Assembly: GCF_002210425.1 (NCBI RefSeq)
Contig: NZ_MWQK01000002.1
Span: forward strand, 186,001-250,000
Length of the DNA stretch: 64,000 bases
DNA from: Fibrobacter sp. UWB2
Lineage (GTDB): Bacteria > Fibrobacterota > Fibrobacteria > Fibrobacterales > Fibrobacteraceae
Direction of reading: 5' to 3'
How positions within the stretch are numbered: the first letter of the stretch is position 1; each line of letters opens with the position of its first letter. The notes below the pieces were generated by a model. It was not told the origin of the DNA and ran no database searches. It saw nothing but the letters and a program-made list of their open reading frames with translations. Of the stretch, positions 20,347 through 51,829 are shown in pieces. The position numbers and the translations under genes were made by a program.

Positions 20347-20705
20347 CTTTAACCCGCTTTAAACGAGTGCAAAGATAGTAAAATGTGGGAGCGATTCCAA
20401 AGGAAATGTCCCCAATTCTGGTTTAACCTATAGTTGTAGTAGGATTTTGTGCCGTCATTGCTTTTTGAGCATGACTCGGCGACTCAGCCATGTCAGTCAG
20501 CGAGCTGTCTGATGCGGCATTCGTCTTGTTTGTCATTCCCGGCTCCGACCGGGAATCTCCCTATTTTTTGGAAAACTCTTGCGTTTTTGCAGGAGTTTTT
20601 TATTTGCATAAACAAAAACCACCAGCTATGCCGGCGGGTCACTTTTAAGTTTTCTACGAATTTAATTAACTTTTACCGGGCACTAATAATTTTTAAAATA
20701 GTAAT
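20347..20705. other. 359-bp divergent intergenic region between sufB and a lipoprotein gene
   Basis: It holds one copy of the dispersed palindrome (20531-20562) and a second hairpin (AAACTC/GAGTTT with inner TGC/GCA, 20573-20598) followed by TTTTATTT on the plus strand. No ORF with a ribosome-binding site was seen. The hairpin has no gene upstream on its strand, so a short transcript is possible but unsupported by a promoter. Confidence 0.5.
20531..20562. repeat. Dispersed TGTCATTCCC palindrome, copy
   Basis: TGTCATTCCCGG and CCGGGAATCTCCC form an inverted repeat around CTCCGA. It differs by compensating bases in the stem from the copies near 42743 and 51713, which suggests that pairing is preserved. 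Confidence 0.8.
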
Positions 20706-21410
20706 ATGAATAAATTTGCGTTTTATGTCTCTGTTTGTATTGGATTTTTCCTTGTCTCCTGTGGCGATGATAGTAGTTCTGTAACTATCCCTTCGGGGGA
20801 GGTGTCTTTATCGACTTTGCTAGACTCCCGTGACGGTCAGACCTATAAGACTGTTGCCATCGGTACTCAAACGTGGATGGCTCAAAACTTGAATTTCGAA
20901 ACGGCAAACAGCTATTGCTATGACGATGATCCTTTTAACTGTATTAAGTATGGTCGCTACTACACATGGGCTGCCGCGATGGATAGTGTAGGAATGTGGA
21001 CCGCGAACGGTAAGGATTGCGGTTATGGTAAGACTTGCTCGCCGACCTTGCCTGTGCGCGGCGTGTGTCCCGAGGGCTGGCACCTGCCAACGTTTGGGGA
21101 ATGGAATGTACTTTTCTCAGCGGTTGGCGGTCAACCTACAGCGGGTAAGATGCTTAAATCTACAAGCGGTTGGAACTGTAGTGATAACGGTAGACACGTT
21201 AGAATAAGCGGCAACGGAACGGATGATTACTCGTTCTCCGCGTTACCTGTTGGCCTCGATATCGTGGGCTGCTACGCGTACTTCTGGAGTTCTGATGAGG
21301 GCGGTAGCGGCCATGCGTACGACGTGGATTTGTGCTACGGCAACGACTATGCGGAACAGGGCCTTTCCTACAAGTTCTACAGGATTCCAGTTCGTTGCGT
21401 AAAAGACTAG
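20706..21410 (+). CDS. Lipoprotein with one Fibrobacter succinogenes major paralogous domain
   Basis: A 234-residue protein. Signal peptide with lipobox LVSC at ~19, short linker, then one TIGR02145-type domain: DSRDGQTYKTVAIGTQTWMAQNLNFET, KYGRYYTWAAAMDS, GVCPEGWHLPTFGEWNVLF, GTDDYSFSALPVG and the ending IPVRCVKD. This domain family is greatly expanded in Fibrobacter and resembles the sulfatase-modifying/C-type-lectin-like fold; its biochemical role is not established. Multiple cysteines suggest disulfides outside the cytoplasm. The ATG follows AAAATAGTAAT without a strong Shine-Dalgarno. Confidence 0.9.
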   Translation: MNKFAFYVSVCIGFFLVSCGDDSSSVTIPSGEVSLSTLLDSRDGQTYKTVAIGTQTWMAQNLNFETANSYCYDDDPFNCIKYGRYYTWAAAMDSVGMWTANGKDCGYGKTCSPTLPVRGVCPEGWHLPTFGEWNVLFSAVGGQPTAGKMLKSTSGWNCSDNGRHVRISGNGTDDYSFSALPVGLDIVGCYAYFWSSDEGGSGHAYDVDLCYGNDYAEQGLSYKFYRIPVRCVKD

Positions 21411-22108: not shown

Positions 22109-25100
22109 TTACCCCTTCTTAATCACTTCCACGGTAAGCTTGTTGAACGCAATTTTGCCGCCTTCGCGTAGTTCTAGCGCTGCCCTGAATGTCGTATCGT
22201 TCTTTTTGAACGGTTCAAGGATAGGCGTGGATTTGTTCTTGAGGAGCGTTTCGACTTCTTCGTCGGAAAATTCTCGTTTGAAGAATATTTTGGGAATCCC
22301 GTAATTGCAGGCGGGGTTCATGCACACGTATGCCGCAAGCGTTTGCACTTCGCCGTTTGGCGTTTGCGTGGTCGTGCCGCTACGGAATCGCAGTTGGTCG
22401 CCGCAGCAAGGGCAGGGAAGGTCTCTATGGACAAATTCAAAATTCGTGCGACCGTCTTCACCGAGCTTTAAGTAGGCATCGAACTCCGTTCCCTTCTTGC
22501 TCTTGAATCCGGTTAAAAGTTCGGTCTTGCCGCCGGTGAGGAGAGCCTTGATGTCTGCTACGCGGAGCTTTTTGCCCGCAACGGATTTGAACAAGGTGAA
22601 GTTACAAGCGGGGCAGAAAATGGCGTTCTTGTTTTCTTCGAGTTTCTTTTTGCAGAGCGGACAGTTGAACTTGGTTTCGGTGCCATGGAAATGACCGTCG
22701 TTCTCGAAAGCGAATGTCGCCTTGAAATCTTTGTCCCAGACGACTTTTGCGTTGAAAGTCGTGCCTTTCTTGGTCAAGAATCCGCTGATGATTTGCGTCG
22801 TGCCGTTGTTGAAAAGTTCCGCAATTTCTTCGTCGCTCATAACATGCCCGGCAATTGTCTTGTAAAAGACGAAGTCGCAAGTCGGGGCGGTGTCCGGCGT
22901 GAGCGTCGGGTCGCCATTTTCGTTGTTTGATGTGGTGACGTCGCTCCCTTCGCAGATGAGGCGGTTGCCGGAATCGAGCAATGTTTTGCCGCACTTGGGG
23001 CACTTGTAATTGGTTGGCGTTTTGGCGCGGGCGTCGTCGGAAAATTCAAAACCGATGTTGCCGTCATCGCCTAATGTGAGCGTGGCACTGAATGTTGTTC
23101 CTTTTTTGCTCTTGAAGCCGCTAAGCAAATCGGACTTGCCGGTTTTCAGGAGTGTCGCCATTTCGGCGTGGCTCAGTGTGCGGCCGGCAATCGTGTGGCC
23201 TGCCTTGAAACCGCATTCTTCGTTTTTGCAGACATAGCCCCACGGCGTAATTTCGAGCGGACTGGAACATTTCGGGCAAGGAATGGCGTCGGTGACGGTT
23301 TCGCGTTCGAATTGGCTGCCGTATTTTTGACGCAGATGTTCGAAGAGTTCCTTGACGTAATTCACGATGCCGTCGCGGAATTCAATCGGCGTGAGTTTGC
23401 CTTTTTCAACTTGTGAAAGCTTGAATTCCCATTCGCCGGTCATTTCGGGCGATTTGACTTTTTCGTCCATGAGCGCGATGACTTCGCGTCCGCGCTGGGT
23501 GCTGACAAGGTAATTCTTTTGCGCTTCGATGAATCCGCGTTTTTTGAGCGTCTCGATGATGCCTGCTTGCGTGGCCGGCGTTCCGAGACCGCGTTCCTTC
23601 ATGGCTTCAGCAAGTTCTTCATTTTCGATTTGCTTGCCAGCCGTTTTCATTGCGGCAAGGAGCGTAGCTTCGGTGAAGTACTTGGGCTTGCTCTTCTTTT
23701 TCTTTTGCAGTTCTAGGTTGTCAAATGGCGCGTGGTCTCCGAGATTCCATTCGGGGAATGTCTCGACGATGTTTGTGATATCGTCGCCATCGCCCTTGCC
23801 TTCAGCATCTGCGCCCTTCGCATCGTTTGTCATTCCCGCCTCCGAGCGGGAATCTCCCTTTTTCTTGCCTTTCTTCTTTTCTTCCTTGACGAGCGCGCGG
23901 AAACCTAAATCTTCATTTCGCTTGAGTTTTAGCCTAAAGATTTCGGTGTTAGCGGCATCCAGCAGAACTTCCATTTCGCTCCAAACATACGGCTTAAGCC
24001 ATGCCTGCACAAAGCGTTCCTTGGCGAGCTTGTAGATGTTCTCTTCCATTTCAGGGAGATTTTGCGGTTCTTCTCCTGTGGGGATGATGGCAAAGTGGTC
24101 TGTGACTTTACTGGAGTTGATGAAGACAAAGTTCTCATTGCCATCGCGCATGACGGATTTTTCTTGCGGCGAGGCAAGCCTTTGTGCAAGCGCGTAAGCT
24201 TCTTGCTGCATCGTGTCCGGCAGGTATTGCGAATCCGTACGCGGGTAGGTGAGCAACTTCTTTTCGTACAAGTTTTGTGCGCAGTCGAGAACTTGCTGGG
24301 CGCTGTATTTAAAACGCTTGTTGCCCTCTTTTTGCAGTTCCGTCAAGTCGAATGGCTTTTGCGGGAACTGCTTTTTTTGTTGGATGTCAACCTTTGCAAT
24401 TGCCGCTTCTTCTGGCGGCGAACATTTGTCTATGACAGCTTGGGCAGGTTCTTCTTTCTCGAAAATCGCAACTTTTAAATTGCTTTGCTTGTCTGCCGCG
24501 ACTTTCTCATCTACAGGCGTGCCGGAATCGCCTTTTTCCTCTTTCGTTTCGCTTTTGACGAGCTGCGCCTGGAACCCTTTCCACGTTCCCACAACACTGT
24601 AATAAAACAGTTCCTTGAATTGCTCAACAATTGCATCGCGTTCCACGACCAAGTTCAGCGTCGGCGTCTGCACACGCCCCACAGAAATCATCTTTCCGCG
24701 CCCGGCGGTGAGCGTGTAAGCACGAGTCGCATTCAGTCCGACCATCCAGTCGGCACGCTGGCGGAGCCTTGCCGCATAGCTCAAGTTCAAACGCTCTGTA
24801 GCGTCTTCCAGATTCTTCCAAGCCTTGTCCAAATCTTTCGCCACATAGCTGTTCACCCACAAACGCTTGATTTGTTTTTTGCGAAAGTCCGGCGTGTAGT
24901 CGAGAATCAAGTCGAAAATCAAATTACCTTCACGGCCCGCATCCGCTCCGTTTACAAGAACATCCGCCCTTGCCATCATGTCACGCACAACCGCGAGCTG
25001 CTTTCGCGTGCTCTCGATTTCCATCAACTTGAATTTTTCGGGCAAAAGCGGCAAGTTCGAAAGTCGCCAACCGCCCTCGAAACCGGGATAGGCGTCCAAC

Positions 25101-41297: not shown

Positions 41298-41512
41298 ATC
41301 TATGACAAGGGAGGGCTTGCGCCCTCCCGAATTGTCATGCCCGCCACTGAGCGGGCATCTCCCTAAACATTCCTTATTGCAAGTCTCTCTGCAATACCTC
41401 GCATTTTGCCTTAGCCCATTGGGTTCGATGCCTTGCTTATCGCAAGGCATCTATGACAAGGGAGGGCTCACGCCCTCCCTAAAACCTACCTTTTCCCAAA
41501 GCACAAAGGCTT
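41298..41512. repeat. Partial tandem duplication including a fragment of the tgt 3' end
   Basis: A block starting GCATCTATGACAAGGGAGGGC occurs at ~41297 and again at ~41449. In both copies it is followed, after different middles, by a 32-base stretch from the tgt 3' end: 41387-41418 matches 41526-41557 at 31 of 32 bases. The first copy is therefore a detached tgt tail. A dispersed palindrome (41333-41364) lies in the middle of the first unit. No ORF here. Confidence 0.75.
41333..41364. repeat. Dispersed palindrome copy between the GH5 gene and tgt
   Basis: TGTCATGCCCGC and GCGGGCATCTCCC flank CACTGA: the stem pair T/A of the consensus is changed to G/C on both arms, a compensatory change. 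Confidence 0.78.
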
Positions 41513-42704: not shown

Positions 42705-42775
42705 TGTCACCCCGGCCTCTGTGCCGGGGTCGGCGTTTTATTTGTCATTCCCGCCTCCGAGCGGGAATCTCCCTT
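42705..42775. repeat. Two adjacent dispersed palindromes, first copy of the duplicated block
   Basis: A CCCCGGCC-type hairpin (42705-42734) is followed by the TGTCATTCCCGC / GCGGGAATCTCCC palindrome (42743-42775). The same pair recurs at 42992-43083 next to the second tRNA-Leu. Confidence 0.85.
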
Positions 42776-42819: not shown

Positions 42820-42903
42820 TGCGGTCGGACAGACTTGAACTGTCATGAGATTGCTCCCACTAGCACCTCAAGCTAGCGTGTCTACCAATTCCACCACGAC
42901 CGC
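42820..42903 (-). tRNA. tRNA-Leu (anticodon GAG), copy 1
   Basis: 84 nt from GCGGTCG (5' acceptor, pairs with CGACCGC) to discriminator A. Class II shape with a variable arm (TGGGAGCAATCTCA region); anticodon loop TTGAGGT between CTAGC and GCTAG gives GAG, reading CUU/CUC. GTTCAAGTC forms the T loop. CCA is not encoded. Upstream on the minus strand there is TATACT as a likely -10. A second identical gene lies 308 bp further. Confidence 0.93.
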
Positions 42904-43127: not shown

Positions 43128-43211
43128 TGCGGTCGGACAGACTTGAACTGTCATGAGATTGCTCCCACTAGCACCTCAAGCTAGCGTGTCTACCAATTCC
43201 ACCACGACCGC
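43128..43211 (-). tRNA. tRNA-Leu (anticodon GAG), copy 2
   Basis: The same 84-nt sequence as copy 1. The identity extends on both sides through the terminator, the repeats and about 15 bases of 5' flank, showing a recent duplication of the whole block. Upstream sequences beyond that differ, so the two copies use different promoters. Confidence 0.93.
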
Positions 43212-47358: not shown

Positions 47359-47390
47359 TGTCACCCCGGACTCAGTTCCGGGGCCGCCTT
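47359..47390. repeat. Dispersed palindrome copy upstream of tpiA
   Basis: TGTCACCCCGGA and TCCGGGGCCGCC around CTCAGT, then TTTTTTAT on the plus strand. A variant with a CCCCGGA stem. Confidence 0.65.
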
Positions 47391-51712: not shown

Positions 51713-51742
51713 TGTCATTCCCGCCTCCGAGCGGGAATCTCC
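51713..51742. repeat. Dispersed palindrome copy upstream of the DUF5683 gene
   Basis: TGTCATTCCCGC, CTCCGA, GCGGGAATCTCC; the consensus form, the same as the copies at 23828 and 42743. Confidence 0.88.
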
Positions 51743-51829
51743 ATTTGCCGCAAAAATTAAATAAATTCAAGCTCTCGCGGCTCTTGGCTTTGACGTCGCT
51801 CGTACAAACTTTTTCTATATTCGCCCTCA

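Follow-up and report, generated by a model that had tools for sequence, protein, structure and literature searches.

The repeat within topB

How does a short palindromic sequence that mostly lies between genes come to be read as part of a DNA topoisomerase? The question is posed by topB in the 64,000-nucleotide stretch of DNA analyzed here (hereafter, the window), which belongs to a Fibrobacter succinogenes-like rumen bacterium whose closest named relatives are F. succinogenes MAGs. The product of topB matches Topoisom_bac (1e-96) and Toprim_Crpt (1.2e-67) in Pfam, it carries four Toprim_Crpt repeats at its C-terminus, and the closest fold to its model is that of E. coli topoisomerase III. Read directly, the 33 bases at 23828-23860 are TGTCATTCCCGCCTCCGAGCGGGAATCTCCCTT, and they contain a repeat unit (REP) with the design TGTC-ATTCCCGC-CTCCGA-GCGGGAAT-CTCC (Table 1). 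On the minus strand the unit is translated as GDSRSEAGMT, residues 469-478 of the topB product (...EEKKKGKKK-GDSRSEAGMT-NDAKG...). This in-frame reading, reported in a preliminary description of the locus, is borne out by the single 1050-residue frame on that strand, but the insert, put there at 12 residues, comprises exactly 10 (30 bases). The same description equated the sequence with two intergenic repeats. One of these (42743-42775) is indeed identical at 33 of 33 bases; the other (51713-51745) agrees at 32 of 33, with one base different.

In an AlphaFold model of the product (31 sequences, mean pLDDT 78), the pLDDT drops below 50 in two loops, S1 and S3, the latter of which houses the REP; a third site, S2, is a hairpin turn. 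A sequence alignment places a short link opposite S3 in E. coli topoisomerase III. Given this short link and the lack of predicted structure at S3, the REP peptide is probably tolerated rather than structural.

Table 1. Coordinates, in the window, of topB, its variable sites and the REP copies discussed in the text.
Feature	Position	Strand	Basis
topB, DNA topoisomerase III, 1050 residues	22109..25261	-	uninterrupted open frame, Pfam, fold match
S1, disordered loop, residues 240-258	24488..24544	-	length comparison, pLDDT
S2, beta-hairpin turn, about residues 437-439	23945..23953	-	length comparison, pLDDT
S3, disordered loop with REP, residues 459-492	23786..23887	-	pLDDT, orthologue comparison
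REP unit within topB	23828..23857	+	direct reading, orthologue comparison
Intergenic REP, 30 bases same as topB unit	42743..42772	+	direct reading
Intergenic REP, 30 bases same as topB unit	51713..51742	+	direct reading
Intergenic REP, stem type TTCCCGG	20531..20560	+	pattern search
Intergenic REP, stem type TGCCCGC	41333..41362	+	sequence reading
Intergenic REP-like unit, stem ACCCCGGC	42705..42734	+	sequence reading
Intergenic REP-like unit, one stem mismatch	47359..47388	+	sequence reading

A dispersed family of small palindromes

The unit in topB is one of many. Its core pattern has 8 matches in the window (up to 3 mismatches, both strands), where shuffled sequence leads one to expect 0.07. 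Genome-wide, the family numbers at least 175 unique copies, recognized by tag and palindrome in the stretches read around candidate copies; a slightly different filter gives 173, which is also a lower bound. A search of the host genome with a related pattern returned 95 matches, versus 0 for the reversed control, and a covariance model returned at least 153 (the search model was built from hand-composed rows with assumed tails, and the pair count of those rows is not used as evidence). Intergenic copies identical to the topB unit, whose absence was named in the preliminary description as a refutation, are thus numerous in this genome.

The units share a TGTC tag, an 8-bp stem that begins with an A-T and a T-A pair, a loop of 5-6 nt (6 nt in 127 of the 173 copies, 5 nt in 42 and 4 nt in 4) and a tail that is CTCC in most copies. 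The consensus of 134 aligned copies is TTGTCAT-NCCCGC-CTCCGA-GCGGGN-ATCTCC-nTTT. The boundaries are sharp, with information at background outside about -2 to +33, and T occupies position -1 in 98% of these copies, the GTC that follows having belonged to the search criterion. When copies in the host genome were selected by their end motifs, leaving the inner six pairs free, 66 of 68 were perfect and two had one mismatch; both-sided changes occur among them at several stem pairs.

Orthologous places in relatives show the presence and absence of REPs. The copy at 42743 is present with a varied loop in genome G004 and absent in G060; that at 51713 differs in G004 by the exchange of one stem pair in both arms (CCCGC..GCGGG to CCCGG..CCGGG); and the place of 47359..47388 is occupied in G004 by a different repeat. 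One stem type occurs in 72 copies in the host genome and in 61, 44 and 32 copies in G004, G001 and G018, but in 0-6 copies in the other sampled members of the genus and in none of 24 genomes outside it, a distribution that indicates a lineage-specific expansion. The earlier proposal that the element moves is sustained to the extent of this burst and of recurrent presence and absence, from which movement is deduced rather than from an observed transposition. None of the places compared gave a clean empty/filled pair showing a target-site duplication, the flanks being too diverged or the repeats nested; that the change runs towards insertion is therefore read from the short loops of outgroups and from the tree described below.

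REP copies inside genes

Although most copies lie outside genes, 15 stand in frame within 11 plausible genes of the host genome. There are two each in tilS, the gene for a serine-rich lipoprotein, asparaginase and an unassigned ORF in locus L253, and one each in topB and in the genes for a fused uroporphyrinogen methyltransferase/synthase, an oligopeptide ABC ATPase, a GH16 enzyme, a carbon-nitrogen hydrolase, a NUDIX protein and a LysE translocator. Coding and non-coding ORFs were sorted by eye and with Pfam; those overlapping REPs that were long and antisense or had an N-terminal extension (e.g. L256, L259 and L225) were left out as probably non-coding. For nine of the 11 genes Pfam gives a match above the cut-off, and several of these matches extend across the REP.

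The suggestion that a single reading frame is always used does not hold, since the 15 intragenic copies employ all six combinations of orientation and frame. Five of the six frames through a 29-30 nt unit are free of stops; the sixth contains TGA and occurs only with units that are shorter by one base, in which the TGA falls out of frame. In-frame REPs recur in 17 of 30 tilS orthologues (L266-L295) and in 7 of 19 asparaginase orthologues (L296-L325), in both cases with several loop sizes, frames and protein loops. An enrichment of REPs in DNA-repair genes has been reported for other species (PMC3733652); it is not supported here, topB being the sole clear DNA-metabolism gene among the 11.

Landing sites in topB orthologues

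Comparison of 53 Fibrobacter topB orthologues reveals three or four loops that serve as landing sites for repeats, with conserved flanks. S1 is assembled from several repeat families and ranges from 5 to 115 residues in relatives, and from 20 to 115 even among carriers that are about 94-97% identical in their aligned parts. S2, which is repeat-free in the host genome, is filled in relatives by REP-family peptides and measures 6-44 residues; S3 measures 23-43. A fourth site, in a C-terminal loop, is found in six orthologues. The fillers comprise several stem types of this REP as well as other GTCA-tagged repeats, which give rise, for instance, to VILSEA... and VIASPQGEA... peptides. The VILSEA... 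peptides derive from a second repeat family, GTCATYCTGAG..GAAGRATC, whose ends are fixed and whose inside is variable and often itself palindromic; it has 50 copies in the host genome (0 in the control) and stands in frame in the topB linkers of L062, L070, L089 and L091.

At S3, the REP is present in 23 of the 53 orthologues and absent in 30. It directly follows the same lysine run in six stem types, and 19 of the 20 carriers compared for site length read it in one and the same frame. An ordinary protein segment shared by all relatives and diverging gradually, the alternative named in the preliminary description, is at odds with these absences and with the differing stem types of the carriers. 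Arm pairing is preserved across them: among 22 distinct linkers chosen by the position of the peptide rather than by palindrome, 17 have arms complementary at 8 of 8 pairs and 5 miss one pair. In a count of 15 distinct units, two of them decayed, 93.3% of cells are paired, versus 77.6 in shuffles that ignore relatedness, and the covariation is 0.377, versus 0.111; neither value was reached in 500 shuffles, and slid versions gave at most 0.124.

A maximum-likelihood tree of the 53 orthologues, computed with the linkers cut, requires 15 changes between presence and absence of the S3 REP, at least seven of which are dictated by well-supported branches, and at least 18 among all seven states of the site. 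These changes mark S3 as a recurrent site rather than one old, drifting insertion. Three orthologues (L034, L036 and L094) carry one-sided intermediates, which suggest that part of the change at S3 happens in place.

Orientation and replication

Within a gene family, REPs keep one orientation regardless of frame: 37 of 37 are antisense in topB, 28 of 28 antisense in tilS and 12 of 12 sense in asparaginase, although these orthologous units are not independent. In the host genome, the REPs of all three genes lie on the plus strand, at contig positions where the GC skew is positive. The strand of the REP follows the expectation from GC skew in 112 of 175 copies (contigs C1-C9; Fisher P 4e-4, tested after the pattern had been noticed), with the sign of the skew taken per contig from sparse sampling and one switch in contig C1 placed by eye. 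Intergenic copies show the same excess both between convergent genes (32 versus 21) and between divergent genes (12 versus 3). A replication-linked bias in orientation is suggested only.

Origin and turnover of the topB repeat

We consider it likely that a copy of this dispersed, ~30-34 bp TGTC-tagged REP was inserted into a loop on the surface of topoisomerase III, where it is translated and tolerated, and that a few permissive loops in Fibrobacter proteins recurrently gain, lose and exchange units of this type. Its survival in topB would follow from the disorder of the loop and from the five stop-free frames of the unit. Arrival may have been through replication-linked insertion or copying or through a foreign enzyme, with no dedicated Y1 transposase in the host genome, and the pairing of the arms would be kept not through any function of the peptide but through template-switching, arm-to-arm correction or recombination with other copies. 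Stretches of REP-bearing proteins thus appear to be shaped by events at the level of the DNA.

The strongest competing explanation is that turnover at S3 involves no new insertions and comes from gene conversion or homologous recombination, whether between strains or between genomic REPs; it is compatible with the identity of the repeat as a REP. The S3 of the host has a chimeric look, its left side and REP being identical to those of L062 and its right side like that of L061, which suggests that recombination also contributes; moreover, stem type TTCCCGC occurs at S3 in two distant clades. The same pattern could arise if entire topB segments were exchanged horizontally. On the other hand, units from other repeat families and in other frames are also gained at S1, S2 and the C-terminal site, and the one-sided intermediates speak for change in place, so we regard recombination without insertion as a possible but doubtful account of the whole. 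That the hairpin itself is under selection, as an mRNA or DNA structure, with the REPs in genes acting as regulatory elements, would agree with the near-perfect pairing and covariation in coding DNA and genome-wide. Such a role is improbable, however, in view of the many topB orthologues with no REP at S3, the occurrence of REPs in unrelated genes in all frames and the other repeats that stand in many loops instead. Similarly improbable is a GTAG-type REP mobilized by a RAYT/IS200 enzyme. The complementary strand of the unit opens with GGAG, a possible pointer to that type, and Y1 transposase genes are present in 9 of 31 genomes of the genus; yet a search of the host genome with PF01797 (Y1 transposase) gave no match, and six Y1 loci in relatives had no flanking REP pair, the one REP found there lying well outside the gene. 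Finally, a linker of ordinary low complexity with a chance likeness to an intergenic repeat would accord with the Lys/Asp/Gly-rich surroundings and with the decayed GD..AG peptides of some orthologues, but it is ruled out, to near certainty, by the 33-base identity, the number of copies in window and genome and the six palindromic variants at S3.

Relation to known repeats

The preferred reading, a REP tolerated in a disordered loop, has precedents. The likeness to palindromic repeats translated within Rickettsia proteins, drawn in the preliminary description, is right in kind: intergenic copies exist, and the design is that of RPE-6 and the CGTC REPs. As far as the account in PMC2229807 goes (after Ogata 2000), RPE-1 likewise is intergenic and also translated in frame inside conserved proteins, but at 105-146 bp, with terminal inverted repeats, it is much larger than the Fibrobacter unit. 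The CGTC REPs defined by Di Nocera in 2013, which include dRS3 of Neisseria and RPE-6 of Rickettsia conorii, have no transposase and are reported inside genes (PMC3733652). The Fibrobacter unit resembles CGTC-1/2 REPs in its tag (TGTC being a listed variant, TGTC/CCTC), in its 8-bp stem starting with AT (8-9 bp in CGTC), in its intragenic copies and in having no REP-flanked transposase gene, as judged by the PF01797 search and the six Y1 loci. It differs in its loop, mostly 6 nt and 5 in about one quarter of copies, whereas that of CGTC is 4-5 nt; in its tail, CTCC as opposed to 3 nt, mostly CCA; and in its host, Fibrobacterota not being among the five phyla listed (PMC3733652). Its loop length and tail thus make it a variant rather than a plain member. 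GTAG REPs with RAYT are also small, partly intragenic hairpin repeats (PMC3733652); the Fibrobacter unit is set apart from them by the absence of a Y1/RAYT match in the host genome and of a REP-flanked Y1 gene among the six Y1 loci of relatives. Neither Fibrobacter nor topoisomerase is named in PMC3733652; as we consulted the open literature only, we make no claim of priority.

Intragenic REPs are thus already known, and the point left open is how CGTC repeats spread and keep their palindromes in the absence of a transposase (PMC3733652). Template-switch correction of the arms of inverted repeats is a known process (PMC8794818), described in yeast coding genes (PMC8604942). It predicts double compensatory changes and multi-residue changes in protein, and it is suggested here as a means of palindrome maintenance for dispersed REPs inside bacterial proteins. 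An extended version, in which the palindromes edit themselves, replication-linked template switching keeps the arms complementary, loops change coupled residue pairs without selection and the orientation of entry is tied to replication with no dedicated transposase, is speculative and, in our estimation, rather unlikely. The topB, tilS and asparaginase genes of Fibrobacter offer a natural series for such questions, with the same loops in dozens of genomes undergoing in-frame gains, losses and stem swaps, and with this series insertion, gene conversion and template-switch correction can be told apart, whether by comparison or by experiment. It also carries a warning that variable loops in REP-bearing proteins may not be adaptive.

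Other features of the window and its relatives

In one relative, the 3' end of topB is found again downstream of the gene (residues 906-1050, 94% identity; L064, 8123-8557). Within the window, GCATCTATGACAAGGGAGGGCT..CGCCCTCCC occurs twice, flanking the REP at 41333 on either side (about 41300-41450). Related genomes contain many places that resemble the stretch 20823-21410, in the ORF region 20706-21410, and the region probably belongs to a large paralogous domain family. Two neighboring genes for tRNA-Leu (42820-42903 and 43128-43211) share the anticodon gag and are likely a tandem duplication.
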